Origin: Gautieria morchelliformis
Taxonomy: Eukaryota > Basidiomycota > Agaricomycetes > Gomphales > Gomphaceae
NCBI GenBank assembly: GCA_015179125.1
Contig: WHVA01000446.1
Coordinates: 1-64,000 of the forward strand
Direction: 5' to 3'
Length of the DNA: 64,000 nucleotides
Shown piece by piece: positions 20,735 through 39,279 of the stretch. The notes under the pieces were generated by a model that ran no database searches, was not told the origin of the DNA, and saw nothing but the letters and a program-made list of their open reading frames with translations. Within the stretch, counting starts at the first letter, position 1, and each line of letters starts with the position of its first letter. A program made the translations under genes and the position numbers.

Positions 20735-21217
20735 TTATGGTGAATCTCCTTGGAACGGTGTCCCTAAGATCGCGTCGTAATATTCAACGTTTGCTACGTC
20801 GAAGTATTCATCGTATGTCCCGCGACCAAACTTGATGGTCGCGTTCGTTCCATAGTTGATCGTGGAACGGCTGCCTATGCAGGCTAGCTGCAGCGCGATC
20901 GGTTGCTCCAGGGAGAATGTCTTCATCCCTGTAGCTCGCGTGAATTCGGGGGACAGCAGTACCCCTTCGCTGCCGCTATCTAGCAGGCAGTGGGCTTTTA
21001 CGCCGTTTATATCCCAGTACCCCGATAGGGTACGGTTCTCACTACGCGGACGCGTTGGCCGCATTCGGTGTTTGCTTCGGTGGTGATACACCGGCTCGGC
21101 CGCCTTGTCTGGCGTGACCGATGTGCGTCCCGCCATGACTTTCGTGGCGGTTTCGTCTTCCAGCGCGAATCTGATTGCGCTGACCTGTAGGTGGTGTCTT
21201 CCACCTCTTCGTCCCAT
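20735..21217 (-). pseudogene. Aspartic protease domain (family-1 copy 1)
   Basis: It contains the retropepsin motif AHCLLDSGSEGVLLSPEF followed by YDEYFDVANVEYYDAILGTP. It lies in a different frame from gag, and the two frames overlap at about 21007-21217, as expected for a frameshift-linked gag-pro arrangement; the same offset occurs in copy 3 at 43.0-43.2 kb. A TGA at about 20594 separates it from the RT frame in both copies. Confidence 0.75.
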
Positions 21218-23700
21218 TCATAGTATTGGGACGGCTCAGGGTCCCACTCTTCAGCGGGCGTGTCTCCGTTATCCGGAGCGTCGTTGGGTTGGGGATCACC
21301 CTCCCCCTCTTCATCAATCTGTTGAAGAGGGTTTTGATCGGGATCCGTCTCCGGATCCTCGGCTTCACCGTCGTGCCTCACGGCCGCTGTCCTGATACCG
21401 GACCTAAGTCGGGGGCATTCTGCCTTCTTGTGGCCAGGTTGGCCGCATTCAAAGCATGTGGTGATGCTTTGGCTGCCGCTGGGCCTTTCGTTGGGCCGGC
21501 CCGACATTTTTGTTGGTGGGGCAGGTCGCGGGGACGATCCTGACGCTTGAGGCAGTTTAGCTTCAGGCGGGCGTCCAGCTTGTGCTGGGCGTGAGGGCGG
21601 TAGCCGTTGACCTGTTCCGCTTCTTGCGAACAGGCTGGGCCTGGTCAGGCTCGTTTGTGTCAACGGCTTGCTCCCTGTGAGCCGGGCGGCGCTTGCCGTT
21701 GCTGCTGCGCTTTCTGCGCGGCGCATCCCCATGTTGTATCGGGATGCCTCCTCGATCATTCAGGCCGTTTCGAAGAGTTTCTCTATTGAGCTGCTCTTCG
21801 CATTATAGCCCTTTTTGAAGACTTCGTTGCGCAGCGTTTCGCGTAGCGCCGATAGGAACCGTCTCCGGAACGTGTACTTGTCTGGCGGCTGTATCATACG
21901 TGCCGCGTATTTCGTGAGCTCGTTCAGCATCTCCTGAATGGTTTTCATGCCTTGCATGACCACGTCGAATTTATTGGATGCGTGATGGTATGTCAGTGTG
22001 TGCAGGAATCTCTTTTGAAGGCCTTGCATCACTGACTCCAGCGTCCAGCTGCGGACCTGGCGATCGAAGCGTTCGACGTTTCGAAGGAACCACTCCTGGG
22101 CTTCGCCGGTGAGGTGAGTGCCCACATAGCCGACCTGCGTGTCAGTTCTGGTTGGCCCTAGGGGGCAATTCATTTTTAGCCATCGTAAGATGGCTGCCAC
22201 GAAGACTTCAAACTCTTCGAGGTCCGATCCCCCTGCATATGGCTCGGGGTGGGCCAATTTTACGCCGGCCTTCGCTAGCACAGACCTTTCTGGGTCTGTG
22301 TCCGCGGCGTCTGCCAACGCCACGCGGATCATCCGTGTGATCCCGTCGTACGGCTCCATTGGTACAATGTCGGCTTGGTCAGGGATTCCCTGGCCTTCCG
22401 TTGGGGCCATGGATCGCTCACGCGGTTGTGATGCCACGTGGGGCAGTCTGTTATATGCATTGACGGGCCCCGAGCGCGGGTCTGGCTCGGGATTGGGAGC
22501 ATTTTGTGCTCTCGGATCCAGGGGCGTGTTGTGTCTGGTGTCCCCGGTCAGTCCCGCATTGCGGATCCATAGCCTGCTGTTGTAGGCTGCGCGTGCTTGC
22601 CGTGCGTCTTGTACGGCTTGCATGAGCTGCTCGTCGGGTAGCTGAGCGGTGTGGCTATGGGCCACCTTTTCTTCAGCGTTCTTCGCTAGTAGCTCGAGTG
22701 CCCGTGTGTGGCGGCATGCGGCTGCGGCTTCTTTACGCTGCCAGTGTGCGACTTCGAGCTCTAAGCTCTCGGTCGTCGTTTCAGAGTCAGGCTCTGAGGC
22801 GACCTGATCTCTAACGATCTGTTGGATCGTTTTACGGCTGTCCGTTGGGGCAGCCGGTTGTTCTTGAGGTTTGTTCCCGAACCTTATGTCCTGTTCGACC
22901 GGGACGGCTGGCGGTGGCATTCACTGCCTGTCTCGCTCCTTTCGGAGTGCGTCGCGATTGCGTTCGTTAGCTGCGGACTGTTGCGAGCTCGGACGAGTTG
23001 CGTCGCATTCCCCGCGTGGGCGGAGTGCTTTCTGGACGTCCTCCAGCGTGGCAGCGTCTTGCAGCCTGACCTCCTCCGCCTGGTGGAGTTCCTTGCCGAT
23101 GGCCATTAGGGCGGGGACGGCGTTGTCAAGCTGCGATGCCAGCTGATCGTGCTTGTGGCGCGTCAGCGTACTTCGGTGCAGCGCAGCCTGCACCTGTTTG
23201 TTCAGGGCTTCTGCCGTCTCGTGGTCGATGGCGTGAGCCCTCGAGCTCTTGCGACTAGAGCTTGAGTACTCCGAGTCCTGACCATTGTCTGGGGCTCGTC
23301 TCTTTTGCCATTGTCCTCCTTCAGGGACAATCGTCGTCGCTCTGCTTTGTGAGCGTCGGTTTGCATCGTGGCTTTGGGCCCGCCTCGACGTTGTTGCTCT
23401 ACCGTCTGACGATGGCGAGACTTCTCTGCCCTTTCCTTTGTCCTTGGGCAGAGAGGGATGGGGGGGCCGCGCCGGCTCGTTGCCCGGCGTCGTCTCTTCT
23501 TCAGCCACGCTCGACGAGACGTGGTCGGGGTTTTCATCGTCCTCTACTGAGGGGACAAGGGCGGTGAGATCTACGATCTCTCCGTCTTCTATCGTCCTGG
23601 TCTCTTGGTCCAGGATAGCGTCAGCCGTCGTGTCGCTGGGCTGCGCCTGGGGTGTGGACCTCGAGCTCGTCGCTCATGTCCATCTTCGACTGCGTGGAAT
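21007..23700 (-). pseudogene. Gag of family-1 gypsy copy 1
   Basis: The frame has three blocks (23508-22921, 22920-21760 and 21759-21007), all in one reading frame but separated by two TGA codons, each directly followed by ATG. It contains the capsid-like core (EAQEWFLRNVERFDRQV, FLHTLTYHHASNKFDVVMQG) and a CCHC knuckle CFECGQPGHKKAEC. An upstream frame from about 23690 (MDMSDELEVHTP) joins after a 1-nt shift. In the older relative at 24.06 kb the codon at the second stop is CAC, so the stop there is a mutation. Confidence 0.8.
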
Positions 23701-23844
23701 CATCACGCTCGCAGCCGACAGTAGAAGGTCTACTGGAGGGTCTCAACGATTGTTAGTCGTTGACGCAGCGATCTTTTTCAAGATTGCTTTGAATCCACTA
23801 TCGGTTGGTCACGTGGCGATCAACCGCAGGATAGTTCAAAAAGG

Positions 23845-24059
23845 TGTAAAGGATGTCGATCTTAAGACCTTGTATCACAAGGGCACAACAGAACTTGACC
23901 AATGTGTGGTATTCTGAATGCTACGTAGTGACAGGTAAGAGTAAGATGCGATGGGGACCGCCGGTCGGTTCCCACACATAAACTATACAGTGGGTCCCTA
24001 AGGGGCCCACTGGGATTATGTAATAACTAATGTACATGTAGATACACAGGTTATTTACA
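23845..24059 (-). repeat. 5' LTR of family-1 gypsy copy 1
   Basis: 215 bp, the partner of 14364-14578, followed outward by the ATGAT target duplicate. The bases immediately inboard (read CCTTTTTGAACTATCC on minus) should hold the primer-binding site; I could not match them to a tRNA. Confidence 0.9.
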
Positions 24060-25574
24060 ATGATGGGATCACATGGATGATCTGCATGGTGCTAGCAGAC
24101 ACCGCCAACACAGACCCTGAAAGTCTGTGCTAGCAAAAGCCAGCATGAAGCTGGCACACCCCAAGCACGCTGGGGGATCTGACCTCAAAGAGTTTGAGAT
24201 CTTTGTCGCAGCCATCCTATGATGGCTGAAATGAATTGCCTCCTAGGGCACACCAGCATAGACATGCAGGTTGGCTACATGGGAACTCGCCTCACCAGCG
24301 AAGCCCAGGAGTGGTTCCTCCAACATGTGGAGCATTTCGACCGCCAGGTCTGCAATCAGACTCTGGAAACAGTGATTCAGGGCCTTCAAAAAAGGTTCCT
24401 GCACACACTTACATACCACCACACATCAAATAAATTCGACATGGTCATGCAGGGCATGAAAACCATTCAGGCGATGCTGAACGAGCTCACAAAATATGCG
24501 GTGCGTACGATACAGCCGCCAGATGATTACACGTTCCAGAGATGGTTCGTGTCCGAGCTGCATGAAACGCTGCGCAAAGAAGTCCTCAAAAAGGGCTATA
24601 ACGCCGAGAGTAGCTTGATAGAGCAGCTCTTTGAAACGGCCCACATGATCGAGGAAGAATCGCGATATAACATGGGGATGCGCTGAGCAGAAAGTGCAGC
24701 TGCATCAGCCAGCCCTGCCCGGCTTGTGGTGAACAATCCGGTGACACAGACAGGCCTGAACAGGCCTAGCCTGTTCCCGAGGAGTGGAGCATCGCTGCCT
24801 CCACCCCTATGCCCAGCCCAAGCTGGACGACCGCCTGAGGCCAAACAGCCTCAAGCATCAGGATCATCACTGAGGCAGGCCCCGCCACTGAAAGTGTCGG
24901 TCTGACCTGACGATTGACCCAGCAGTAGTCAAAGCAGCACCACGTGCTTTGAATGCGGCCAACATGGCCACAAAAAGGCGGAGCGCCCCTGACTCAGGTC
25001 TGGTATATGGACAGCGGCTGCAAGGCACAACAATGAAGACGAGGATCTGGATGCGGATCCCGAACAGAATTCTCTTCAACAGATTGATGAAGAGGGGGAG
25101 GGTGATCCCCAAACAAATCTCCAGACAATGGAGACACGCCCGCTGAAGAGTGGGATCCCAAACCATCCCAATATCATGAATGGGATGAAGAGGTGGAAGA
25201 CACTGCCTATATATCCAGCGTGATCAGGATCGCACTGAAGGATGACGTCACCATGAAAGTCATGGCGGCCTGCATGTCGGCCATGCCAGACAAGGCGGCC
25301 GAGCCAGTGTATCACCACCGAAGCAAGCACAGGATGCAGCCATCGTGGCCACAAAATGAAAACCGTACCCTATCAGGGTATTGGGAGATAAATGGTGTAA
25401 AAGCCCACTGCCTGCTGGATAGTGGGAGTGAAGGGGTGCTATTATCCCCCAAGTTTACATGTGCCACAGGGATGAGGACGTTCGCCCTGGAGCAGCCAAT
25501 TGTGCTGCAACTGGCCTGCATAGGCAGCCATTCCACAATTAATTATGGAACGAACACAACCATTAAATTTGGTC
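24060..25574 (+). pseudogene. Old gypsy remnant (family-1 copy 2): gag and protease
   Basis: This continues the gag broken at 14363: EAQEWFLQHVEHFDRQVCNQ, FLHTLTYHHTSNKFDMVMQG, a knuckle read CFECGQHGHKKAE, then the protease motif AHCLLDSGSEGVLLSPKFTC. Many stops and shifts show it is the oldest of the three family members. Similarity ends near 25574, within the segment corresponding to TIKFG; no RT remains. Confidence 0.85.
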
Positions 25575-25703
25575 GTCTTTCCTCTAGCTTTTGTTTCCCT
25601 AGGGCCGAATTCAGGGATTGTCACAGGCTCATTGGTCATTATTACAGAATGACAGAATGACTACATCATGGCTGCGATAGAGACATTGAGACGCGAGAGA
25701 CTG

Positions 25704-25843: not shown

Positions 25844-26332
25844 TGTTGGGTGCATTTATGCTCCTGCACCAAAATCAAGCATAATATATTCAATTTGTTG
25901 TATGGTGTTTTCAATCTTTTCTCATACTGTTCTTGTACCATGCATCCACTTCCCTGCTTATTTTCGAAATTTTCCAGTCACTCCCTATCTCTCCATTCCA
26001 CTCTGTTATTTCTATTTTCACAGGCGGCTGCACCCAGCGGAGTTTGAAATGACTTGACGCGCGAGCTCTTGGGCGCTAAAGGGCCGGGTGGAAGTATATG
26101 CCTTCTGAGACAGGATTACACTCCTCTCTCAGTGACAATAAATTCACTGAGAGAGGCGAGTAGTATTCTTTGTATTTTCATAACATGTTGACTGAAAATC
26201 ATGTAGTACATTTGATTCTAGGTATTGTATTAATACATCAGTGACAATAAATTCACTGAGAGAGTACATTTGATTCTAGCTTTCTAAGAACTCTACCGAA
26301 CCTTCCCTGCCATAGTCCCTTGGTTGCTAACA
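25844..26332 (+). repeat. 5' LTR of the copia element
   Basis: It begins TGTTGGGTGC and ends GCTAACA. Its two relatives are the solo LTRs at 18463-18958 and 45947-46435. It holds two hairpins whose arms are CTCTCTCAGTGA and TCACTGAGAGAG around 26131-26165 and 26238-26268. Confidence 0.9.
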
Positions 26333-26338
26333 AGGGTT

Positions 26339-27793
26339 ATGGGCCCCGCAGACATTTCGCAGAAGCTTTTGGGTGTGGAGAAGCTTGCAACAGATGGAAG
26401 TAATTGGCCTCTGTGGCGAGCTACTCTCACAAGTTATTTTGAGTCCAAAAATCTACTCAGGCATATAGAAGGGAGAGCCATTCGACCTCCTGATCCTCCA
26501 GTCATGCCCCCAGGCCATATTCTCACAGAAGCTGAGGAAACTCAGATTGAGAAGGCTGAGGAGAAGCTGGAGAAGTATCTTTCCAGAGAAGGACAGGCCA
26601 AAACCCAAATAATCGTCTCAGTGTCAGAGTCACTAGCTCTGATGCTACAGAAGAGACATACAGCAAAAGAAGTCTGGGATGCATTGGTCAATGAGATGAC
26701 CAAAAAGCCCAAGATGGTCCTCACCAACCTACAGAGACAGCTTCGCAGTATGAGGTGTCCTGAGGATGGAGACTTGAGAGATCACTTGGACAAGGCCCAA
26801 GACCTCTATGCTCGTCTCAATGAGATGGGAGCCAGAATTTCTGAAGGAGAGTTCATCGACATCATCCTTGCATCACTTCCACCCTCCTATGAGGCAGTTA
26901 TGAATGCCCTTACCACGTCGCTCGAAGAATGTGGAATGCCCTTAGTGCCTGATGATATCATCAGAGTACTAAAGGCTCAATACGACAGGAGAAAGACCCT
27001 GAATATTTCACAAGAAGAGCAGGCATTTATTGGTTCGTCTACGAAAGGGCAGAAGGGCCGGAAAGACCCGAAGGTGTCTACATGCACTAATTGCCACAAG
27101 CCTGGACATGCTATAGAGAGTTGCTGGGCTAAAGGAGGTGGTAAAGAAGGCCAGGGGCCACGTCAGAAAAAGAAAGCAAAAGCCAAAAAGAAGAAGGGCA
27201 AAGCCAAGGCGAATGTTGCCGAAGAAGTGTCCTCTGAAGAGGATGAGAGTGGCAGTCCAGCCGCTTTCGCCAACTTCGACTGCTCTAATCTGAGTAGTTT
27301 ATCTCTGGACACTGTTGTTATCCTCGACATTGGAACGACCGCACATATGACCCCTCACAAGAATTTATTGAGGGATTACAGTCCATTCTCACAGCCGCGC
27401 ACAATTCGTGCAGCCAACAAAGGCACTTTTGATGCCTTCGGTTCAGGCTCACTTGTGCTATCTAACAAGGTTGGAGATAAGACTGTGAACATTACATTGA
27501 AGGATACGTTCTACGCGCCCAAAATGGCTGTTACCCTCATCTCGATCGGCCGGTGTGATGATGCAGGCTATAACACACAAATAGCTGATCAGAAGTGCAC
27601 AATATCCAATCGTAAAGGCAGGATATTGATGCAAGCACCGAAGCTGAATGGCTTATATCGATTTGATTTACAACACACAAGTGCCGAAGCGCATATATGC
27701 GCATCAGCCATGGAAATACACCAAAAAATGGGGCACATTTCACAGAAGTCCCTACAGCATTTGCTCAACCGTGGCATGATATTAGGCATTTAA
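26339..27793 (+). pseudogene. Copia gag, protease and start of integrase
   Basis: ATG 26339 lies inside the putative primer site. The product has a UBN2/gag domain (about residues 50-220: LTNLQRQLRSMRCPEDGDLR), the CCHC knuckle CTNCHKPGHAIESC, a Lys-rich linker and a protease region. The protease active site reads DIGTTAHM where copia enzymes have DSGATxHM, so the Ser is lost. The integrase zinc region starts with HQKMGHISQKSLQHLL. A premature TAA at 27791 interrupts the frame. Confidence 0.85.
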
Positions 27794-28636
27794 TTGAGCT
27801 CAAAAGGTGACAAGGTTGTTTGCGATGCGTGCATTCAAGCGAAGATTGCACGTAAATCACTTCCTCAGGAACCCAGAAGCCGATCATCAAAATTCGGTGA
27901 CAGGATTTATTCTGATGTCTGGGGACCAGCGAGACACTCCACAATTGACAAGAAATCCTATTATGTGTCCTTCATCGACGACTACTCAAGGGAATCGGTT
28001 ATCTATTTGATGGCAAACAAATCGGAAGCATTTTCAAAATACAAACTCTACGAGGCTTTGATGCTTCGACAGAGGAACGTGCACATCAAAGCACTTGTTT
28101 CTGACAGAGGGGGCGAATATACAAGCTCAGAATTTGAACAGCACTTGGCCAAGCAAGGCACGAAGCATCGGTTAACCGTACACGACACCCCAGAGTCGAA
28201 TGGTGTTGCTGAACGTTTAAACCGAACTCTAGTTGAAAGAGCTCGTGCCATGCTATTGGAATCAAGTCTTCCTAAGACTCTATGGGGGCATGCAATTTTG
28301 CACGCCAACTATCTTAGGAATCGGACACACACAAGAGCTTTGCCAGATAAAACCCCTTTTGAAATGATCCATCACGAGAAACCGAACCTGAAGGACATAC
28401 ACGTGTGGGGAATTGAAGTCTACGTTAAAGTCAAAGAGGGAAACAAACTAGCAGCCCGTGCCAAAAGAGCTCGGTGGATAGGAATCTCTGGACAGAGCCA
28501 TGGTCACTGCATCTACTGGCCTGACTCTCAGAAGGTTTCTGTCGAGCGGAATGTTATATTTGACTCAGAGATGAAGGGGGGCAAAGCTCCAATCATTTCT
28601 ATTGAAGAGTCACAGCTACCTACGTCCAGAAAATGA
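27794..28636 (+). pseudogene. Copia integrase
   Basis: It continues in the same frame after the TAA. It shows CDACIQAK (end of the zinc-binding region), then the rve core with SDVWGPARHSTIDKKSYYVS, FIDDYSRESVIYLM, LVSDRGGEYTS and the Glu of SNGVAERLNRTLVE. It then runs into the copia-specific 'GYSxxxKAYR'-like region before ending at a TGA where the frame shifts by one into the RT frame (overlap ATGA at 28633). Confidence 0.85.
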
Positions 28637-29538
28637 TACAGGCCATCTCGGCGCCAGCACCTATGCCTAGCCGCTTAGTCAGCAAAGAGGCAAAGATCGA
28701 GGAAATTGATGATGATGAACCAGAGGAACGTCTGAAAGAGCTGCAACCCAGTCAGACTGTTGATGTCAGACCTCAAGAAGCTGCTCCAACAAGGAGAAGT
28801 GAAAGGATCCGTCAGCAGCAGGTGCAGCCGGCCCCAAGTGGTCCCGTAACAAGGTCTCAAGCTAAGAGACATGCTGGTGCAGACATCACTACACTAGCTT
28901 ACGAGGACATTGAGGACCATCAAGACAAATTATTCGAACAAGATTTATCCTCTGTCACTGACGGCATCAGTGATTATAACCTTGCCATCAGTACACTTTC
29001 GACCTCCGATCAAAATAAAGATAATGTGCTGCCAGATTTACATCAGACCGAGCCTAGCAATGCAGATGAAGCCTTAAATGATCCTATGTGGAAAGCATCG
29101 ATGGATAAAGAGTATAAGGTGCTACTCGACAAAGGTGTATGGGAAGTGGTTAAACCACCTCCTGGGGCAAATATTGTCGGAAATAGATGGGTATTCCTCT
29201 GGAAACGCAATCCAGAAGGTGAACCCATTACACCTAGATCGAGGATGGTCGCCCAAGGCTTTACACAAAGTTTTGGAGTCGACTACAATGAAACCTATGC
29301 ACCTGTTGCTCGGATGACTTCCTTACGGATTATATGCGCCATTGCTGCCAGGAACAATTGGCCTATTCACCAAATGGATGTGGACAGTGCGTATTTGAAT
29401 GCTACACTGCCAGAACCTATTTACATGAGACAGCCGTATGGATATGAGACCGGAGACAAAGATGATGTCCTCCTGCTGAAGAAAGCACTTTACAGCCTCA
29501 AACAGTCTGGAAGGGAATGGTACAAACGTAGTCTATGA
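28633..29538 (+). pseudogene. Copia reverse transcriptase, N-terminal half
   Basis: An acidic linker precedes RT. RT motifs seen are DPMWKASMDKEYKVLLDKGV, WVFLWKRNP, ARMTSLRIICAIAARNNW, QMDVDSAYLNATLPEPIYM and LLKKALYSLKQSGREWYK. The catalytic YVDD region should follow about 40 residues later but is absent, because the copy ends at 29538 next to an unrelated LTR. Confidence 0.88.
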
Positions 29539-30159: not shown

Positions 30160-30515
30160 CCGTCAGCAAAGCGTTCACGTCTGAATTATTTCGTATGTTT
30201 ACCAAGAAGGACAAATATCCACTTCCGCGCATTTCTGACCTCCTTGACACTCCCCGCAGAGCGAAGATCTACACCAAAATCAACCTCCCACACACTTATC
30301 ACCTTGTCCGCATCCGAGAAGGTGACGAGTGGAAAACCACCTTCCGCACCCGCTACAGTGCTTTTGAGTGGGTTGTCATGCCTTTTGCTCTAACCAATGC
30401 TTCTGCCGCTTTGCAGCGTTTCATGAATGTCATATTCTCCGACCTCCTCAATGTATGTGTTCTAGTCTACATTGATGACATCCTCATCTATTCCTTCAAC
30501 AAAGTCTTCCAGTAG
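30160..30515 (+). pseudogene. Isolated gypsy RT fragment
   Basis: It encodes [40 protein letters not shown] and [14 protein letters not shown], almost colinear with residues in the RT of the element at 30.8-38.8 kb but with substitutions (for example INLPHTYH for IDLRHAYH). It covers only the RT core and has no LTR, so it is a scrap from a relative. Confidence 0.85.
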
Positions 30516-30808
30516 GTATTTTTTAGCATGTTTGCAACATTTTGAACGAGTACCATAGGAATATTTGATGGCAAGAAGAGATAAAAACATGTGTTATTAG
30601 AGTGCGGTTCAACACTAGTCAGCTCGCAACAATTCCTCACATGGAATGAAGTAATGTGCCTTCTCCAGGTCTGAGCATATGGAGATGTTCCTGCGTCTGA
30701 TCCTGCTCATGTTCGACATCCACCTCCTTGCGTGCAACTCCACCGATGACTGGAAAGTGAATGACATGTAAATAGAGGTCTGTAAAATGGTTTCCATTGT
30801 ACGGGTCC
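30516..30808. other. No recognisable gene; left flank of the young gypsy insertion
   Basis: This single-copy-looking sequence continues after the element at 38797, as shown by the GGTCC duplication at 30804-30808 and 38797-38801. A short open stretch on plus reads MEMFLRLILLMFDIHLLA; too short to name. Confidence 0.4.
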
Positions 30809-31489
30809 TGTTACGTATCGAGATTTCCACTAAGTCGGAACTGGAAAGGACAGTGGCTTCAACTTATAGGTTGCGCCCCCAATGAACTATCGTCCTAGGT
30901 ATTTCGGAAATGAGTCGGAAGTCGGAAAGTACTGAACCAAAGGTTTGGTCGGAACTTGTGTCGGAACTGAGGCGGAAAGCGGAAGACGGAGAGACTGAGA
31001 TCTTGCTAGACTCGCTGTGCTAAGAACAGGAGATAGAGCGAAGGAAATCAAGTATCGAAGGTGATTATCTGATTGCAGAATAACAGACATACATGAGGGG
31101 GTTTTATACAAAGCGCAGAGCAACAAGTAATGGTGTTGTACTAAACAAATTCCGGAGGAAGCGGAAGTCGAGTACAATGTGTGGGAACTAACTAATTGGG
31201 AACAATGGGACTACAAGGGGGGTTCAGGGTAAGGTAGAACAATGGCAAAGAACAAGGGGTCGGGAAAACATATCTGACAACGAACTACAAGGGTGACCGG
31301 ATGTGTGGTTTTGATGGATGGCGAGGTGGGTCCGGTGGGTCCGAGTAATAGAGTCGAAAGAACAAGGGAAATGTACAAGGGGCGGAATGTCGGAAATGTC
31401 GGAGGGGCGGAACGTGTGGCGGAACTATTGGAGAGGCGGAATGTATGGCGGAACTGAGGGTCGGAAGTCGGAAATGAACGGTCGTAACA
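30809..31489 (-). repeat. 3' LTR of the family-2 gypsy element
   Basis: It reads TGTTACG...CGTAACA, 681 bp. I count 17 CGGAA on the plus strand against one TTCCG. It lies upstream of the plus-strand accessory ORF, so it could also act as that ORF's promoter region. Confidence 0.93.
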
Positions 31490-31503
31490 GTATCTCCCTT
31501 CTA
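31490..31503 (-). other. Polypurine tract
   Basis: Read on minus, AGAAGGGAGATAC directly abuts the 3' LTR, the expected primer for plus-strand DNA synthesis. Confidence 0.6.
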
Positions 31504-31533
31504 AGGTCGAGCCCCGCGAGACCACAAGTCGGA

Positions 31534-31612
31534 ATCACGTGACCTGTGAACAAACGCGTCGGAGTTTGAAATATAGGCGGGAAACAAGACGCGTCTTCTT
31601 GCTTAATCCATC
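31534..31612 (+). promoter_or_regulatory. Putative promoter of the antisense ORF
   Basis: In the 80 bases before ATG 31613 are a CACGTG E-box (31536-31541) inside TCACGTGA, two ACGCGT boxes (31554-31559 and 31589-31594; this is the MluI cell-cycle box recognised by the MBF/Mbp1 family in fungi), and a TATA-like AAATATA (31569-31575) about 40 bases before the ATG. The spacing fits a small dedicated promoter, but expression is not shown. Confidence 0.45.
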
Positions 31613-32833
31613 ATGAGCTCTTCAGTCGATTTCTCCAAAATGTCCAGTGCTGAGATGAAGCAGCACTTTGCTGATATTCTTGCGCAGAAGGAACTGGCCG
31701 AGAAGCGCGAGGCCGAGGAAGTTGCGCGGAAAGAGAGGGAGCGGCTGGAGGAGGAGCGCAAGGAGAAAGAGCGCATGGAACTGGAGCGTCGGGAACAGGA
31801 GCGGAAGGAGAAGGAGGAGCGGGACCGTAAGCGTCGCGAGGAGGAGTCGCGCGCCCGTGAGGAACAACGGAAACGGGATGCGGCCGAAAAGGCTGCGGAA
31901 GAAAAGGCCGTGGCGGAAAAGGCAGGGAAGTTCCGGGTGAGTCGGAAATGTCGTGGGGAGGTTCCGGAGCTCACAGGGAACTGCCAGAGAGTTGCCGATT
32001 CCGAGGGGGAGTCGGAAGCGGAAAGCACGCCGACTCCAGAGGGCAAGGGGAAGCAGAAAGAAAGTGCTCCCATGCCGAACGTAGTTGAGGAGCGGAAACG
32101 GAGGGCGGACGAGTTCCAGCAGGCTCGGAAAGAGAAGCTGGCTCGGATACTGGAGTTGCGAGAGCTGGGGCCGGAAAATCCTGCGACCCGGAAAAGGAAA
32201 ACCAGGGACGGTGAGGAGGAGAAGGCCCCTTGCGATACGTGCGAGGTCAAGGGCCTGGAGTGCGTGTGGTCGGAAAATCCGCGGGAGACGGCCTGCGAAC
32301 GGTGCCGGGACAAGAAGTGCCGTTGCGTGGTGGATGGGTGTGCCGCGAGGGTGGAGCGGAAACGGCGCAGGGTTGAGACCGAGGGGCCTGAAACCCCTAA
32401 GTCAAAACCGGGACCAAGCGGGAAGAAGGCGGAAGGATTTCCGGTGACCGGGACATCCGAGGCAGCGGTGCTGAACCGCTTCAGCATGGCGTCTCCGCTG
32501 CTAGACATCGCGGAGTCGCTGAGGGGGATCCGGAAAACCCAACGCGGGATCCGGAAGCTGCTGACGGATATGGCGGTGGTTCAGGAACAGCAGTTGCTGT
32601 CGTTCCAGAACCAGATGACCGTCATGTCGGCGGTCCTGGAGCAGTTCAAGCGCGAGTACCGGTGGCGGAACGAGATGGTCCGGGAAAGGATGGAACCACG
32701 GGTGCAGGAGGAGAACGGGGCGGAAACGAGGGAACGGGTAGACACGGAGTTGGTGGTCGTCGAGGTAGGAGGGTCGGAAAAGGATCCGGAAGCGGAAATG
32801 GAGGTCGAGGCGGAGACCATGAGGGAGGAGTAG
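31613..32833 (+). CDS. Antisense accessory protein: coiled coil plus Zn(II)2Cys6-like cluster
   Basis: This 406-codon intact frame runs opposite to gag-pol and converges on its end, leaving about 130 bp. Residues about 15-110 form a highly charged Glu/Arg/Lys coiled coil (RKERERLEEERKEKERMEL). Residues about 205-240 contain CDTCEVKGLEC, then ACERCRDKKCRC, the C-x2-C-x6-C ... C-x2-C-x4-C layout of fungal Zn2Cys6 DNA-binding domains, flanked by a basic RKRRR run. The C-terminal half has a second helical region (about 285-350) and an acidic tail (MEVEAETMREE). In the known family such proteins are nuclear transcription factors binding CGG triplets. I infer, without proof, a DNA-binding regulator of the element. 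The spacing within the cluster is not perfectly canonical, so it could instead bind RNA or protein. Confidence 0.75.
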   Translation: MSSSVDFSKMSSAEMKQHFADILAQKELAEKREAEEVARKERERLEEERKEKERMELERREQERKEKEERDRKRREEESRAREEQRKRDAAEKAAEEKAVAEKAGKFRVSRKCRGEVPELTGNCQRVADSEGESEAESTPTPEGKGKQKESAPMPNVVEERKRRADEFQQARKEKLARILELRELGPENPATRKRKTRDGEEEKAPCDTCEVKGLECVWSENPRETACERCRDKKCRCVVDGCAARVERKRRRVETEGPETPKSKPGPSGKKAEGFPVTGTSEAAVLNRFSMASPLLDIAESLRGIRKTQRGIRKLLTDMAVVQEQQLLSFQNQMTVMSAVLEQFKREYRWRNEMVRERMEPRVQEENGAETRERVDTELVVVEVGGSEKDPEAEMEVEAETMREE

Positions 32834-32963
32834 GGTGTCGAGGTGACTTGTAGTATTTTTCTTGAAGTGTCGGAAATTAGCGTAACGGAAATTCAATCGG
32901 ATTTTAATAATGACTTGAGAACTGTAAGAAAGCAATGGGTGTCGGAAATGAGGTCGGAATTGA

Positions 32964-35900
32964 CTAGGGCGCGGAAATGGGGCCAGGCTTATTAGGATAT
33001 GACTTGTGAAAATCAGAGACGAGGTCAGAGGCGTGATCGAGTTCCGTGGCGGAAATCCATGAAGTTTCTTCGTCGGTGTTTTCATAGCCTGCCCACTTGA
33101 CTAGGTACTGGAGTTGGCAGCGGTATCGTCTGTCGAGCTTGGAGTTGAGAATGTCCGAGATTTCATATTCCGGTTCTCCGTCAATGACGACTGGCGGAGG
33201 CGGAGGTTGTTCTCGATTCGGAATTGTATTCGGAACTGCGGGTTCAAGCATGGAGACATGGAATACCGGATGTACTGCGCGCATATTGTCAGGAAGTCTG
33301 AGGGTGAAAGAACGACTGCCGGCCTTAGCGATGATCTCGTAAGGACCGAGGTATTTCTCAGAGAGTTTCTTCGAGGGGCGAGTCGTGCGGAAGTTTTCCG
33401 CTTTGACAAAGACTTTGTCGCCAATCTCGAATGCCGGTTGCGGAAGGCGTTTCCGATCGGCGGAAGTTTGGTATCTCTTCTGGGCAGCTGTAATGTTCTC
33501 TCGGAGGTGCTGGTGAAGGTCGTCAAGTTCCACAACGAAATCTCGGGCTCTTGCAGAGGCGAGGTCGCGTTCAGGGTGGATGGCGAGATTCGGGTGGTAG
33601 CCCTTGTTGGCGAAAAAGGGTGAAATTCCGGTGGTGGCGGAAGGCGCATTGTTGTAGGCAAATTCCGCGAGTGGAAGAAGGTCGGACCAATTGCTATGTT
33701 GGTAGTTGCAATAGACGCGGAGATACTGCTCAAGGGTCTGATTAGTACGTTCCGTTTGTCCGTCTCCTTCGGGATGATAACCGGAAGTGAAGTGGAGCTT
33801 CATGTCGAGAGCCTTTCTGAGGGTGCGGAAAAAGGATGACACGAATTCGGATCCACGGTCGGAAGTGACATGGGAAGGTATTCCGTGCTTGGAAAAGACG
33901 TGGAGCACAAAGAGCTGTGCGAGCTGGGCGGAAGTGATGGTGTCGTAAGTCGGAATAAAGATGGACTGCTTTGTGAGGCGGTCAATGATCACTAGAATGG
34001 TATCATAGCCGGATGACTTAGGAAGTTTCTCAATGAAATCCATGGATATCGAATTCCACGGTTGTTCCGGGATCGGAAGTTGCTTCAGGAGGCCGTAGGG
34101 TTTGTGACGTTGAGGCTTGGCTCGCATACAGGTGGTGCATGACTTGCAGTAGTCTTGGACCATCGTGCGGAGGAGAGGCCAAGTATAGGTGCGTCGGATT
34201 ATGTCGAGGGTTTTGTTCTGGCCTTGGTGTCCTGAGAGCAGATGATCGTGGCTTTGCTGGAGCACGCGAAGTCGTAGGTCGTTGGTGTCCGGAACGTAAA
34301 TCCGGGACTTGTACCGGAGAAATCCGTCGGAATCGAGGGACCATCCAGGACTGGTGGGGTCATCGAGGTGGGCTGCGGAGGTGGGGTCGGAACGGAGTGC
34401 GGAACGGATGTCGGAATGGAGAGACTCGGTGTCCATAATAATTGAGGCGCGGAGTAGCGGAAATTGCAATGCTGTGGCACGCAGGGACGATGCCAGTTGC
34501 TCAGTGGAGAATACTGGGCGGAAATTGTGCGGATTAACGCTGGCATAGTCGCTAGTTCCCTCTTTTGGGTAGACGTCCCAACGTCTGGTGAGCGCGTCGG
34601 GTTTTGCTCCGAGCTTTCCGGGGCGGAAACGGATTACCATGTTGAACTGTGAGAGATATTCAGACCAGCGGACTTGACGGCGAGTCAAAATCTTAGTGGT
34701 TGCAAAATACTCAAGGTTCTTATGATCCGTTACAACGTCGATGGGATAAGTTGGACCTTCGAGGTAGTGTCTCCAAATTTTGAAGGCTTCGAAAATCGCA
34801 AGTAGTTCCTTATCGTGGACGTCGTAGTTGAGTTCCGGGGCGGAAAAGGTGCGGGAATGAAAGGCGATCGGATGAATTTCTCCGTCGTCGGGTGAAATGA
34901 TGGAAAGAATGGCGGCTAGCGCGTAGTCAGAAGCGTCGGTTTCGAGTACAAGTTGGGCATCAGGAATCCAGAAACCGAGTATGGGAGCCGTGGTGAAGGC
35001 CGATTTGAGAGCTTCAAATGCGGAACGGCATTCCGGAGTGAAATTCCATGGGGCACCCTTCCTGGTGAGACGCGTGAGCGGAACAGTAATGTTGGAAAAA
35101 TTATAAATGAAACGCCGGTAAAAGTTGGCGAAGCCAAGGAAAGACTGCACATCCTTAACACGTCGGGGTTCCGGCCATTCTTGAATTGCCTTGACCTTGT
35201 CCTCTGCCATGGTAAGACCTGTTGGAGAGAGGATGTAGCCGAGGTATTCGACCGTGTCGCGATGCCATTCACATTTCTCTGCTTTTGCGTAGAGATGGTG
35301 TTTGCGTAGACGGCGGAGTACTTCGCGGACATGTTCCCGATGTTTTTCCGGTGTGTCGGAATAGATGAGGATGTCGTCAATGTAGACTAGGACGCATACG
35401 TCGAGGAGGTCGGAAAATACGTCGTTCATGAATCGCTGAAAAGCGGCGGGAGCGTTGGTTAGACCAAAAGGCATGACAGTCCACTCAAAAGCACCGTAGC
35501 GGGTGCGGAAGGTGGTTTTCCACTCGTCACCTTCCCGGATGCGGACAAGGTGATAAGCGTGCCGGAGGTCAATTTTGGTGTAGATCTTCGCCCTGCGGGG
35601 AGTGTCGAGTAAGTCGGAAATGCGCGGAAGCGGATATTTGTCCTTTTTAGTGAGGGCATTGAGTCCGCGGAAATCGACGCAAAGGCGGAGAGATCCATCC
35701 TTCTTCTTGACGAAGAGGATCGGAGCGCCGTGCGGAGACAGCGAAGGGCGGATAAAGCCCATGTTGAGATGTTCATCGACGAACTCTCGGAGAGTTAGGA
35801 GTTCACTTTGCGAAAGGGAGTAGATCGGTCCAAGGGGCGGAGATGCTCCTTCTTCCAAATCTATCTTCAGGTCGTAAGGTCGATGTTCAGCTGGTTTATC

Positions 35901-36377
35901 GGCTTTGGCCTTGTTGAACACATCCGGGAAGTCACGATATTCTTCCGGAACTGAGCTCATGTCGACCGGAGCGGAAGTCGAGGCGGAACGAGCCTTGACT
36001 GAAGCCGAATCGGAGAGGTGAAGCTGGAAAACGGTCGTATCATCTTGCCGTTGCAATACGCGGAAAGCGGTGGCGGAAACGAGCGCAATTCGAGGAGCTT
36101 CGAGGGACGGAGGTGCTAAAGCGGGACCGGAGTGCGGAACTGAATCCACGAGCGGAGATGCAGAAGAGGCCTGAGCCATCTTTGCGGACGACGTCGGAAT
36201 AGACGGAAGTTGATCCGGGGTACGGAACTGTATTTGACCCAATGCCCAGTTAATCGACGGATTATATCGGGTGAGCCAATTGTGTCCTAGTACAACGGAA
36301 CAGCTAGCATCTAGCGGAGTAACGTAAAACGTAACTTCATGGTTGTCCCCAGTAGCGAAACGGATAGACAGATCCAC
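32964..36377 (-). CDS. Pol: RT, RNase H, integrase, chromodomain (family-2 gypsy)
   Basis: 1137 codons uninterrupted. In order: the end of protease (VVLGHNWLTRYNP), RT ([48 protein letters not shown]), RNase H (LETDASDYALAAILS), integrase zinc region (HDHLLSGHQGQNKTL ... CKSCTTC), integrase core (SMDFIEKLPKSSGYDTILVI, VTSDRGSEFVSSFF, GDGQTERTNQTLEQYL), and a C-terminal chromodomain (EYEISDILNSKLDRRYRCQL, then YLVKWAGY). All catalytic residues are present. This is the Tf1/sushi-like chromovirus arrangement common in basidiomycetes. The DSG of protease lies just upstream in another frame (36496-36434). Translation as a Gag-Pro-Pol fusion would need the frame changes noted separately. Confidence 0.93.
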   Translation of the reverse strand: MDLSIRFATGDNHEVTFYVTPLDASCSVVLGHNWLTRYNPSINWALGQIQFRTPDQLPSIPTSSAKMAQASSASPLVDSVPHSGPALAPPSLEAPRIALVSATAFRVLQRQDDTTVFQLHLSDSASVKARSASTSAPVDMSSVPEEYRDFPDVFNKAKADKPAEHRPYDLKIDLEEGASPPLGPIYSLSQSELLTLREFVDEHLNMGFIRPSLSPHGAPILFVKKKDGSLRLCVDFRGLNALTKKDKYPLPRISDLLDTPRRAKIYTKIDLRHAYHLVRIREGDEWKTTFRTRYGAFEWTVMPFGLTNAPAAFQRFMNDVFSDLLDVCVLVYIDDILIYSDTPEKHREHVREVLRRLRKHHLYAKAEKCEWHRDTVEYLGYILSPTGLTMAEDKVKAIQEWPEPRRVKDVQSFLGFANFYRRFIYNFSNITVPLTRLTRKGAPWNFTPECRSAFEALKSAFTTAPILGFWIPDAQLVLETDASDYALAAILSIISPDDGEIHPIAFHSRTFSAPELNYDVHDKELLAIFEAFKIWRHYLEGPTYPIDVVTDHKNLEYFATTKILTRRQVRWSEYLSQFNMVIRFRPGKLGAKPDALTRRWDVYPKEGTSDYASVNPHNFRPVFSTEQLASSLRATALQFPLLRASIIMDTESLHSDIRSALRSDPTSAAHLDDPTSPGWSLDSDGFLRYKSRIYVPDTNDLRLRVLQQSHDHLLSGHQGQNKTLDIIRRTYTWPLLRTMVQDYCKSCTTCMRAKPQRHKPYGLLKQLPIPEQPWNSISMDFIEKLPKSSGYDTILVIIDRLTKQSIFIPTYDTITSAQLAQLFVLHVFSKHGIPSHVTSDRGSEFVSSFFRTLRKALDMKLHFTSGYHPEGDGQTERTNQTLEQYLRVYCNYQHSNWSDLLPLAEFAYNNAPSATTGISPFFANKGYHPNLAIHPERDLASARARDFVVELDDLHQHLRENITAAQKRYQTSADRKRLPQPAFEIGDKVFVKAENFRTTRPSKKLSEKYLGPYEIIAKAGSRSFTLRLPDNMRAVHPVFHVSMLEPAVPNTIPNREQPPPPPVVIDGEPEYEISDILNSKLDRRYRCQLQYLVKWAGYENTDEETSWISATELDHASDLVSDFHKSYPNKPGPISAP

Positions 36378-36433
36378 AACTTGGGAAATTCCCGTGTTGG
36401 AAGACCCGTCGAAAAGGCGGAGCGGAATAGCGG

Positions 36434-36651
36434 AAGTTTATGTTTCAAAACAAAGTCGGAATCGAGGAAACAATGAGTCGAACCGGAGTCGACCAATGCT
36501 GTAAACGGGGGTGCGGAAATGGTGTCGGAAGTGAGCGGAACAGAGAGAGAGTCGGAGGACGAAAGAGCGGATGCGTTGAGTTTAACCTCGTTTGTCGCAC
36601 GAATGGGGTCAACACAGCCCTCAGCTCGTGCGGAGGCCGGAGGACTGCTGA
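36434..36651 (-). pseudogene. Protease N-terminal part, 1-nt frame break before pol
   Basis: After the gag stop, the -1 frame reads AEGCVDPIRATNEVKLNASA and on to FTALVDSGSTHCFLDSDFVL, a retropepsin active site. Near 36433 (read CTATTCCGCTCC) one base seems to be missing, and the continuation PLRLFDGSSNTGISQVVDLS is in the pol frame. In a relative without this deletion protease and pol would be one frame. It may be a genuine disabling mutation or a sequencing error in this otherwise young copy. Confidence 0.7.
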
Positions 36652-38082
36652 CTATTTTTTTGAATCCGCAGCGGGAACCGCTTCGGATTTCTCTTCCGTC
36701 TTTGCTGCGCGGCCCTTGGCCTTAGCAGCGGAGGCGGAAGCGCGAGTGCAGTCGCGAGCGACGTGGCCTCCTTTGCCGCAGAAGAGGCAAAGGTTGTTGT
36801 CCATGCGACGCTGGTGTTCTACAGGGGTTAGTTTTCCGTCCTTTCCAAGTTTGTCGGAAAGATCCGGGGTGCTCTTCCGGGCGTTGGTGTTAGAACCAGA
36901 GGCCTGGTTGTTCCGAGGGGTGTTGTTGTTGTTCCGGTTGCCGGAATTGGATCCGGAACTGTTGTTGCTGTTGTTGTTTCCGGAGTTGGTGTTTCCGGAA
37001 TTAGTCTTCTTCTTGTCTTTATCAGACTTCTTGTCGGAAGACTTGTCGTTCTTGCTCTGGGTGGAAGTTTCGCGAGCGATCTCGGAATGTCTTTCCCAGT
37101 AGCGTGAATCGATGGACTGAGCGAGGTTGCGGAGGTCGGTAAGGGTGGCGGGTTTTCCGACGCGGGCAATTTCATCCTTGATGCGGGATGGCAAGCCCAT
37201 ATAAAACTGGCGTCGGAGTGCGGCTTCTCCCCATTGGACTCGAGGAGCGAGCTGCTGAAACGTGACGATATATTTAGCTATCTTATGAGTGTCTTTCATG
37301 CGAAGCTTATCGAGTTCATTTTCCGCATCGGCTTCCATATCAAATGGTCCGAAGTTGCTGCGTAGTTCGGAAATGAAATTGGGGTAATCGTCGGCCCAGT
37401 CGACGAGAGCGAACGGATCCATGAGGGCGGGCTCGAAGTAGTCGAGAGCCGTGCCTCGGAGATAGGAAAGGGCATAATTGACCTTTCGTTCGTCGTCGGG
37501 AAAGGCGTCGGGACGATCACGGAAGTTGAGTTGAAGCTGGACCAGAAATGGCTGGAGCTTCTTGGGGTCGGAACCGTCGAACTGATCTGGTTCGCGGACC
37601 TTAGTCTTGGGTCGTGGTGGTGCTTGGGCCGGGCGCTGGAGTTGTCCGGCTAGCATGGCGATGGCTTGTGCAAGATCCGGAACTGGCGCGGGCGGAACTG
37701 GGTTGGCGGGAATCTGAGGTGGAATTGGAGGTGGAGGACCGCCGGGAGGACCGCCTGGGGGACCGCCGGGTGGGCTGCCATGAGGGCCGCCTGGAGGTGG
37801 TCCTGGTGGAGGTGGTGGTGGTGGAGCTGGGCGTCGGAATGACGCTGCTGTTTGTTCGCCGCTGCTACTCGTCGAATTCCCGTCGTAGTCGGGATTGTCG
37901 TCGGGATTAGCGTCGGGAACTTCTTCGAATCGTTGCGGAAAAGCATCGGAAAGCTCATCGTCGGCACGAGAGCTGCTGGAGGGTTCCGCGTGCCTTGGTG
38001 CTGCGGATCTAAGATTGCCAAAATAAGAGAGAGCTTCGACAGCTCCTGCTCGAGCTGAAGTAGCTGTGGTACGAGGAGGCAT
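36652..38082 (-). CDS. Gag (family-2 gypsy)
   Basis: 476 codons. The start ATG 38082 is 33 nt after the 5' LTR. A Pro/Gly-rich N-terminal third (polyproline near residues 83-120) precedes a retrotransposon gag domain (about 160-300: FRDRPDAFPDDERKVNYALS, DYFEPALMDPFALVDWADDY). Then comes an Asn/Ser/Gly-rich low-complexity linker (GNTNSGNNNSNNSSGSNSGN) and a CCHC knuckle CLFCGKGGHVARDC. It packages the element RNA into virus-like particles. The stop codon TAG follows directly on seven A's, a -1 slippery site. Confidence 0.93.
   Translation of the reverse strand: MPPRTTATSARAGAVEALSYFGNLRSAAPRHAEPSSSSRADDELSDAFPQRFEEVPDANPDDNPDYDGNSTSSSGEQTAASFRRPAPPPPPPPGPPPGGPHGSPPGGPPGGPPGGPPPPIPPQIPANPVPPAPVPDLAQAIAMLAGQLQRPAQAPPRPKTKVREPDQFDGSDPKKLQPFLVQLQLNFRDRPDAFPDDERKVNYALSYLRGTALDYFEPALMDPFALVDWADDYPNFISELRSNFGPFDMEADAENELDKLRMKDTHKIAKYIVTFQQLAPRVQWGEAALRRQFYMGLPSRIKDEIARVGKPATLTDLRNLAQSIDSRYWERHSEIARETSTQSKNDKSSDKKSDKDKKKTNSGNTNSGNNNSNNSSGSNSGNRNNNNTPRNNQASGSNTNARKSTPDLSDKLGKDGKLTPVEHQRRMDNNLCLFCGKGGHVARDCTRASASAAKAKGRAAKTEEKSEAVPAADSKK
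36655..36661 (-). promoter_or_regulatory. -1 ribosomal frameshift site between gag and protease
   Basis: On minus, the gag frame ends TCA AAA AAA TAG; the heptamer A AAA AAA is a canonical X XXY YYZ slippery sequence. A one-base backward slip reads ATA GTC AGC AGT into the protease frame. Immediately downstream GTCAGCAGTCCTC can pair, with internal bulges, with GAGGGCTGTGTTGAC, giving a possible stimulatory stem-loop about 3 nt from the heptamer. Confidence 0.65.
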
Positions 38083-38115
38083 AGTGATAGTTATCGGGTG
38101 GGAATCAGATAATAC

Positions 38116-38796
38116 TGTTACGTATCGAGATTTCCACTAAGTCGGAACTGGAAAGGACAGCGGCTTCAACTTATAGGTTGCGCCCCCAATGAACTATCGT
38201 CCTAGGTATTTCGGAAATGAGTCGGAAGTCGGAAAGTACTGAACCAAAGGTTTGGTCGGAACTTGTGTCGGAACTGAGGCGGAAAGCGGAAGACGGAGAG
38301 ACTGAGATCTTGCTAGACTCGCTGTGCTAAGAACAGGAGATAGAGCGAAGGAAATCAAGTATCGAAGGTGATTATCTGATTGCAGAATAACAGACATACA
38401 TGAGGGGGTTTTATACAAAGCGCAGAGCAACAAGTAATGGTGTTGTACTAAACAAATTCCGGAGGAAGCGGAAGTCGAGTACAATGTGTGGGAACTAACT
38501 AATTGGGAACAATGGGACTACAAGGGGGGTTCAGGGTAAGGTAGAACAATGGCAAAGAACAAGGGGTCGGGAAAACATATCTGACAACGAACTACAAGGG
38601 TGACCGGATGTGTGGTTTTGATGGATGGCGAGGTGGGTCCGGTGGGTCCGAGTAATAGAGTCGAAAGAACAAGGGAAATGTACAAGGGGCGGAATGTCGG
38701 AAATGTCGGAGGGGCGGAACGTGTGGCGGAACTATTGGAGAGGCGGAATGTATGGCGGAACTGAGGGTCGGAAGTCGGAAATGAACGGTCGTAACA
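38116..38796 (-). repeat. 5' LTR of the family-2 gypsy element
   Basis: 681-bp partner of 30809-31489, with one difference seen. The sequence directly inboard (GTATTATCTGATTCCC on minus) should hold the primer site, but no tRNA match is obvious; chromoviruses of this type may self-prime. Confidence 0.93.
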
Positions 38797-39279
38797 GGTC
38801 CGAGAGACGCGGTCCATTCTTGCACCATAGGAACAGTGGCGAGCGGCGAGAGCATGTCTAAAAAAGATATTTCTGTCCATCGGCTCAAGCCCTCACAACT
38901 GCAACGTTCTCGCTGGGATAGAGCTCATTTAGTGTCTTGATAATTCAAGCTCTTGGCTGGTTCGATTTTATTTGCTCGCGAAGGTGTTAGATAAAATCAA
39001 CGAAAGTGACAAGCTGTTCAAAGCTGGCAGCTTCAAGGAGACCAAGATTTTCTACACTAAGCAGTGAAAATAGGTTTGACATATCACTAGAGTAGATATA
39101 TACAAACAGCGGAGCGATTCGTGCCACTGTAAGCTTAGTAGTGTGCTCGTTGTGGCCGTATGTAACGTTGTGGGCCTTAGGCCCACAGTCAACTATATTA
39201 CTTAACGGATTCTAGGGTTTGTCCATGGACGTGTCCGCGGACCGGCGCTCCCCATGGCTGGGGCGTTCTGCACAAATCC
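38797..39279. other. No recognisable gene
   Basis: Host-like sequence between the gypsy element and the LINE. A perfect 7-bp hairpin GTGGGCCTTAGGCCCAC lies at 39170-39186. No coherent frame. Confidence 0.4.

Follow-up and report, generated by a model that had tools for sequence, protein, structure and literature searches.

A predicted spliced antisense gene for a zinc-cluster-type protein and an element-wide KCGGAA word in a gypsy retrotransposon of Gautieria morchelliformis

Introduction

As far as the accessible text of the cited sources reports, the gypsy element Boty (BcGypsy1) of Botrytis cinerea carries an antisense gene, brtn (Zhao et al. 2011, cited in PMC7264820 and PMC8365987), the antisense factor of HTLV-1 is HBZ (PMC11963269), and fungal DNA transposons encode TET/JBP dioxygenases (PMC12730594). 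A review (PMC7264820) states, in its accessible part, that the role of antisense genes in LTR retrotransposons has still to be determined. In Arabidopsis, according to the part of the paper available, the sequence word belonging to VANC6 is also found in AT9TSD1, an element which is not related to the VANDAL transposons and which responds to VANC6 (PMC5735166).

Here we analyze the first 64,000 nucleotides of contig WHVA01000446.1 of Gautieria morchelliformis (in the following called the window), which contains a gypsy element with an antisense gene. The initial annotation knew of no fungal gypsy element with a Zn2Cys6 antisense gene. This claim of novelty has to be narrowed, since with brtn antisense genes in fungal gypsy elements are already known, but a Zn2Cys6 antisense precedent was not found. 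In a literature search with most subscription papers outside its scope we found no paper joining Zn2Cys6, LTR retrotransposon and antisense and none joining Zn2Cys6 with circular permutation, and none of five zinc-cluster terms is found in the accessible part of PMC10799480.

Results

The gypsy element and its surroundings

The element occupies positions 30809-38796 on the minus strand and comprises an LTR pair, gag and pol, flanked by GGTCC. The 3′ LTR (30809-31489) and the 5′ LTR (38116-38796), both on the minus strand and 681 bp long, are identical; their bounds were set by the TG...CA ends, the exact repeat being 683 bp with one chance letter at each end. The target-site duplication GGTCC is seen in the sequence at 30804-30808 (left copy) and 38797-38801 (right copy). 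Open reading frames and domain matches identify gag with a CCHC knuckle (36652-38082, minus strand) and pol with reverse transcriptase (RT), RNase H, integrase and chromodomain (32964-36377, minus strand). With an LTR pair, gag, the order RT-RNase H-integrase and a chromodomain ending pol the element is a Ty3/gypsy chromovirus. The observed/expected ratio of CpG is 1.11-1.24 in the parts of the element versus 0.59-0.92 in four stretches elsewhere in the window, which is the expectation for a young insertion.

The surroundings of the element contain further repeats. Large facing inverted pairs (81-83%) with a gag-like frame inside (24219-24686) are present at 20823-25575 and are likely nested or inverted old copies. 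The stretch 26324-29538 is by inspection a copia-type gag-pol distributed over several frames with a low CpG ratio (0.59), and just outside the left LTR there is an RT fragment (30201-30494) which is 89% complementary to pol of the element.

The antisense reading frame is retained in many copies

The 406-codon open reading frame which had been placed antisense to gag-pol, between the end of pol and the 3′ LTR, is indeed present at 31613-32833 on the plus strand. Its protein, however, is better given as 389 amino acids, as an intron is the best reading of codons 109-125. The frame starts 123 bp from the 3′ LTR, and the region in between (31490-31612, plus strand) is the presumed antisense promoter. 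In this leader there are an E-box CACGTG (31536-31541), two ACGCGT boxes (31554-31559 and 31589-31594) and the motif GGCGGGAAA (31576-31584). The upstream block described initially stands with regard to the E-box and the ACGCGT boxes, which are common among the copies (at least one E-box in 50 of 60 copies, at least one ACGCGT box in 46 of 60), whereas the AAATATA, although present here, is found in only 24 of 60 copies. The ACGCGT boxes presumably suggest G1/S timing. An alignment of 24 copies shows that the leader, carrying TCACGTGAC, the two MluI-type ACGCGT boxes and GGCGGGAAA, is kept across subfamilies.

Searching the 122 Mb genome with the antisense protein, 102 of 1075 candidates were scored and gave 104 matches, two of which are secondary pieces of places listed before; the main matches are 64-100% identical and many are partial. 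Sixty of the 102 places, among them that of the window, were retrieved together with 1.5 kb of flanking sequence at either end as far as the contigs reached. An LTR sequence, complete or partial, lies next to the antisense frame in 59 of these 60 copies, and the end of pol does so in 55, contig ends having cut two of the five misses. Lack of conservation of the frame in sister copies had been named as a finding that would speak against the gene, yet the frame is full length and open in 35 of the 60 copies, including that of the window. Judging by these copies, the conservation of the frame is not due to chance.

Outside this genome, a search of 5.8 billion proteins, which works via shared exact words and against an annotation which may omit repeats, yielded as the only match P0001, a gene model of Gautieria morchelliformis itself, which contains the N-terminus of the antisense protein. 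In the same 5.8 billion proteins, residues 125-372 gave 988 candidates, none of them with E ≤ 0.001, and residues 190-262 gave one candidate and no homologue; a homologue of the antisense protein was not found in IMG/VR either. In P0001 (G000:C763:29442-31593) about the first 64 residues of the antisense protein are joined to a downstream gene (Pfam PF20414). Between P0001 and contig C763 the identity is 100% over residues 1-81 and 127-167, the other parts being 78-92% identical, partly across stops, and this lower identity is what a search ignoring introns would give. The fusion probably arose through faulty annotation or the capture of an exon.

The antisense frame is under purifying selection

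A dN/dS near 1 was the second result named beforehand as adverse. The pooled pN/pS of the antisense frame is far below this value, namely 0.19 for 22 young copies and 0.28 for 13 divergent copies (exons only: 0.18 and 0.27), and is similar to that of the end of pol (0.15 for 22 copies, 0.34 for 11 copies). Four of the five other frames over the same region have a pN/pS of 1.00-2.05. The mirrored minus frame, the only minus frame below 1 (0.30/0.47), has stops. A minus-strand ORF of 301 amino acids was also considered as the true gene and was rejected, since the minus frames have stops in the relatives. With its position between pol and the 3′ LTR, its presence in many copies and the purifying selection acting on it the antisense frame is an antisense additional ORF (aORF) of the kind known from LTR retrotransposons.

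A predicted intron in antisense orientation

Within the frame we find a predicted spliceosomal intron of 51 nt (31937-31987, plus strand, codons 109-125) bounded by GTGAGT and TGCCAG, with a branch-like word CTCAC in the window copy (CTCAC/CTGAC among the copies). The intron would separate exon 1 (31613-31936, plus strand), encoding a long charged helix of the coiled-coil type, from exon 2 (31988-32833, plus strand), encoding a putative permuted Zn2Cys6-type cluster, a basic run, a helical coil and an acidic tail up to the stop codon. A branch-like word CTNAC is present in 49 of 53 copies. The 5′ pattern allowed only GTGAGT or GTGTGT and therefore the occurrence of GTGAGT in 54 of 54 copies is partly by construction; it was missing in six of the 60 copies (L029, L034, L035, L037, L052, L060), in L037 because the pattern was too strict, as this copy has V109-S110. 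As residues, V109 and S110 are invariant in all 15 aligned full-length proteins. For L049 no 3′ end was found by the intron pattern.

The segment is 51, 54 or 57 nt long in 52 of 53 copies, and these multiples of three would also fit a coding segment; the length of 58 nt in L028 is taken for a mis-set 3′ end of the search pattern. Inside the segment, however, the pN/pS is 0.97 (ten intact copies, 54-nt segment) compared to 0.29 for the whole frame of the same copies. Furthermore, L055, L057 and L059 contain two in-frame stops, both within the segment, and splicing restores the normal end; the exons of L055 and L053 compared with each other have a pN/pS of 0.18. L051 and L054 have a stop in the segment and then again later. 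Counting full-length copies, 36 of 53 are obtained with splicing versus 33 of 53 without. No weight is given here to a list of 23 stops, six of which fall by residue number into the segment, since it contains secondary alignments: L035 and L044 are free of stops in the frame of the genome search.

Given the neutral interior of the segment and the stops found in it, we favor an intron over a coding segment and conclude from the sequence pattern that the antisense gene is probably spliced in the antisense direction. Conserved splice signals together with a neutral interior are sequence evidence for an antisense mRNA, which we infer to exist. The conserved leader and the antisense orientation of the intron argue for transcription of the gene from a promoter of its own. 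In the genomic gag-pol RNA the intron is reversed and would thus be retained through retrotransposition.

A putative zinc cluster with swapped halves

The predicted 389-residue protein consists of a long charged helix, a linker, a Cys cluster flanked by basic stretches, another long helix and a tail of acidic residues; this layout was read on the unspliced frame of 406 residues, the numbering of which is used below. The Cys cluster, the basic runs and the acidic tail are thus as first described. The cluster C207-x2-C-x6-C-x10-C-x2-C-x6-C238 plus C243 is encoded at 32231-32341 (plus strand), and the C-terminal long helix (residues 293-371; 32489-32725, plus strand) is a candidate dimerisation coil.

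Zn2Cys6 domains (PF00172) have the consensus spacing CX2CX6CX5-12CX2CX6-8C, and the spacing CX2CX6CX10CX2CX6C found here agrees with it. Four of the six cysteines are invariant in 15 full-length proteins and the other two are each lost in one copy (replaced by tryptophan in L049 and in L038). Against the Pfam profile Zn_clus the whole protein scores 12.9 bits, below the gathering cut-off of 21; of the 15 proteins, eight match at E ≤ 1, the lowest value being 0.0088. The first Cys half aligns to profile positions 7-34 (19.9 bits, cut-off 21), whereas the second half of L036, L037 and L055 aligns to positions 1-13 (11.5-11.8 bits); the second half of the window copy itself gave no Zn_clus match. 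The canonical order with the basic CX2C half first is therefore not found, the halves being swapped. LAC9 (1cld) likewise aligns to the domain profile in two pieces in swapped order, with an insignificant E of 1.4. As the halves align to Zn_clus in reversed order we read the Cys cluster, on these alignments, as a permuted cluster of the Zn2Cys6 type located between coiled coils. The original description as Zn2Cys6-like was accordingly right with respect to the type, with the qualification of permuted halves and of a whole-protein score under the Pfam cut-off.

The AF2 model of the Cys domain (pLDDT 59.5, low confidence) has two helix-strand halves, and a Foldseek search with it matched no zinc-cluster structure; six defensin entries with E 2.5 or worse were taken as noise. 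The full-length model of the unspliced 406 residues (pTM 0.24) gave no useful fold match, and a search of solved structures with the whole protein returned only weak matches to helical proteins (E 0.04-0.1). The best explanation of these features is a protein of the DNA-binding type with putative coiled coils for oligomerisation.

The word KCGGAA is enriched along the whole element

The most frequent hexamers of the element are GCGGAA (57) and TCGGAA (48), about 5.8 of each being expected. Combined as KCGGAA the word occurs 105 times on the plus strand, compared to 11.6 expected, and eight times on the minus strand of the element (30809-38796), with a largest gap of 304 bp between plus-strand sites. 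Counting both strands this amounts to 14.1 per kb in the element versus 0.66 per kb elsewhere in the window (37 in 56 kb), so that, as with VANC, the word is strongly enriched in the encoding element. Sites are found in the LTRs, gaps, intron, exons, pol and gag, the density being 22-25 per kb in LTRs and gaps (LTRs 25) compared to 7-10 per kb in gag and pol. Of the 17 sites in the 3′ LTR, eight are clustered at 30835-30984, eight more at 31382-31473, and one stands alone. CGG is the core of Zn2Cys6 sites.

None of 300 codon-preserving shuffles in each case reached the count observed in gag (10 vs 2.4), in pol (35 vs 8.9), where the words lie in all three phases, or in the antisense gene (16 vs 6.5). 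When the divergent copies are compared in all pairs, the synonymous third sites lying in the word change at about half the rate of identical codons elsewhere (0.121 vs 0.234 in the antisense frame, 0.074 vs 0.145 in pol), while six other hexamer patterns in the antisense frame gave ratios of third-site change of about 0.7 to 1.3. For third-codon sites of both genes together the values are 0.116 in the word and 0.190 in matched codons, and 29 of 5000 permutations were as extreme (columns permuted within codon type, words defined on the window copy); for each gene alone the test is weak (316 of 5000 for the antisense frame, 117 of 5000 for pol). Among 23 five-letter words tested CGGAA and TTCCG take the first, third and fifth rank. 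From the reduced synonymous change in the word it appears that the word is kept by selection at the DNA level. In the whole genome three CGGAA occur within short reach 22,999 times, compared to 1,394 for the backwards pattern. Minisatellites of the CGGAAGGTGA type at G000:C1:241342-241463 and C1:676490-676524 carry the CGGAA word in other surroundings.

Two further comparisons gave no significant difference. The retention of the 17 LTR word sites in other copies is 0.72 versus 0.65 for 504 other hexamers, which is not significant (953 of 5000 draws as high), and CpG transitions are about as frequent in the word (65 of 330) as at other CpGs (102 of 431; P = 0.22). A lasting protection of old copies from methylation is thus not seen.

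A second gypsy family carries the word

For comparison we chose, from 150 matches listed, eight stretches representing seven places with other gypsy pol sequences. Calling the family of the element A, the pol protein of family B (L061 with L064, and L068) shares 39% with it; family C (L063, L065, L067) is 68% identical to B and family D (L062, L066) is 52% identical to A. In pol of family B there are 20 KCGGAA words versus 4.4 expected and 15 versus 4.0 on the other strand (0 of 200 shuffles each), and pol of L068, also family B, has 7 versus 1.4 and 6 versus 2.1 on the two strands. The short gag of family B is barely enriched (4 vs 1.1, 3 of 200 shuffles; other strand 2 vs 0.9, 43 of 200). 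Enrichment was absent in the sampled stretches of families C and D and in the copia frame tested in the window. Since the word is present in A and B and lacking in the nearest sampled relatives it appears to have been built up separately in two lineages.

In the one copy of family B that was read through, the pol frame runs into the LTR and a relative of the antisense protein was not found. For family D there is no antisense ORF of at least 150 amino acids in the 1.6 kb after pol, a region which does not reach a located LTR. The L061/L064 copy (G000:C114, about 238857-245795) is interrupted by a family A LTR with 93% identity. Other words are over-represented in other families, namely TGCGATC as a short tandem array in L063 and CTTCGC in L062.

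An RNA-level role of the complementary TTCCGM was considered as well, because 105 of the 113 words of the element point one way; it is less likely, as pol of family B has the word on both strands.

Divergent gene versions on similar backbones

In the LTR and pol bins, L055, L057 and L059 are 1-7% different from the window copy, as opposed to 14-34% over most of the antisense frame, one bin of the frame in L059 being at 5%; the first bin and gap-rich bins are unreliable in this comparison. Between L002 and L057 the divergent block extends from the start of the frame to about 150-200 bp past its stop codon. All three parts are present in 41 of the 60 copies; of the 820 pairs which these form, 79 differ by less than 3% in pol and yet by more than 12% in the antisense frame, and pairs with 3-5% in pol have a median distance of 21% in the frame versus 7% in the LTR. 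The synonymous divergence in the young clade is similar for the antisense frame (0.062) and pol (0.074), so that the divergent blocks are better accounted for if old versions of the gene are exchanged than if there is local hypermutation. Young backbones thus seem to carry old antisense gene versions, the gene being exchanged between copies as a cassette.

Discussion

The codon, splice-site and word statistics suggest to us that the element makes its own regulator. We give an even chance to the reading that the antisense frame is a genuine, separately transcribed and spliced gene for a self-encoded activator and/or anti-silencing factor, which would act via KCGGAA and would be exploited by family B. 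The protein would bind the words all along the element, most densely in the LTRs, and bound protein would keep the copies transcribable, either as an activator or by counteracting silencing or both. It would act in trans on every copy carrying the word, and family B, in which the copy read through has no such gene, has accumulated this word as well and probably makes use of the protein. That the antisense protein is the binder of KCGGAA we infer from the co-occurrence of a DNA-binding-type protein and a selected CGG-type word in one element, which most simply form a pair. The distribution of the words over the whole body of the element suggests, by analogy with VANC, a chromatin-wide role, and the effect is presumably positive, since sites for a repressor would hardly accumulate in a second family. 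The more detailed version, in which a permuted zinc-cluster protein reads the element-wide word, family B evolved the word independently to make use of this protein and the gene moves between backbones as a cassette, the whole being an anti-silencing or activation system, we hold to be somewhat short of an even chance. The "dedicated regulator" proposed by the initial annotation thereby gains indirect support from the distribution of the word.

The word enrichment in family B without the gene in cis means that a host factor could be the reader. A host Zn2Cys6 factor might read KCGGAA in both families while the antisense protein does something else, for example counter RNA silencing or hold chromatin. 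The word is common to two distant families and the gene is found in one only, as judged from one copy of family B, which fits such a host reader; but the antisense product itself has a zinc cluster of the putative CGG-reading type, and words running through coding sequence would be unusual for an ordinary promoter factor. We regard a host reader as unlikely.

Somewhat more doubtful still is that the protein is a self-limiting repressor, an element-encoded brake on the copy number. One of the word clusters (31382-31473) is situated at the U3 end of the LTR and directly precedes the antisense leader, and a protein bound there could shut down both genes. The accumulation of the same word by a second family, however, is hard to explain if binding represses, and the family is abundant and the window copy recent.

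The words span the whole element with no plus-strand gap above 304 bp and the protein has long helices at both ends, as would suit a protein which coats or bundles the DNA of the element, either extrachromosomal cDNA or integrated copies, for nuclear entry, pairing or integration. The higher density in LTRs and gaps than in gag and pol speaks against this, though coding constraint alone could produce it, and we consider such a packaging role improbable. That the antisense RNA alone matters, as a dsRNA trigger or by interference, with the frame being incidental, is known for some elements without coding capacity such as micropia according to the accessible part of the review (PMC7264820), but as the sole role it is refuted here by the codon evidence (exon pN/pS 0.18-0.27 vs 0.97 in the intron) and deserves hardly any credence.

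Returning to the self-encoded activator or anti-silencing factor, the element supplies a candidate DNA-binding domain, a candidate target word and a second family apparently exploiting it. If this is true, a fungal retrotransposon would offer an independent parallel to the sequence-specific anti-silencing of Arabidopsis DNA transposons, and binding sites would be seen to be selected for within the codons of gag and pol.

With respect to known systems, Boty resembles the present element in being a fungal gypsy element with an extra gene antisense to gag-pol; the passages on brtn available to us, to which the comparison is by description only, mention no zinc cluster, intron or element-wide word. 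The plant elements Grande and TRP28 have, in the accessible descriptions, the position and orientation of the gene in common with our element, Grande in addition an own promoter and a nuclear protein and TRP28 a predicted DNA binding, but these are elements of plants with other protein domains, for which an element-wide target word is not noted there. HBZ is a bZIP protein of a retrovirus. As an antisense gene of a retroelement encoding a nuclear regulator it resembles the gene described here, which in contrast belongs to a gypsy element and encodes a putative protein of the zinc-cluster type. The Gal4-type Zn2Cys6 factors (PF00172; LAC9, 1cld) share the spacing CX2CX6CX10CX2CX6C, the basic half and a helical coil after the cluster, whereas in the antisense protein the halves are swapped, the score is below the Pfam gathering score and there is one extra conserved cysteine. 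VANC21 and VANC6 of the Arabidopsis VANDAL elements are, as the available part of the paper describes them, transposon-encoded proteins paired with a short word enriched in their own element, and the presence of the VANC6 word in the unrelated AT9TSD1 parallels our family B (PMC5735166). VANDALs, however, are DNA transposons and their words lie, according to the same text, in non-coding tandem repeats, while here the word is also found in coding sequence. The best reading of this likeness is therefore that the two systems may resemble each other in their working and not in their descent.
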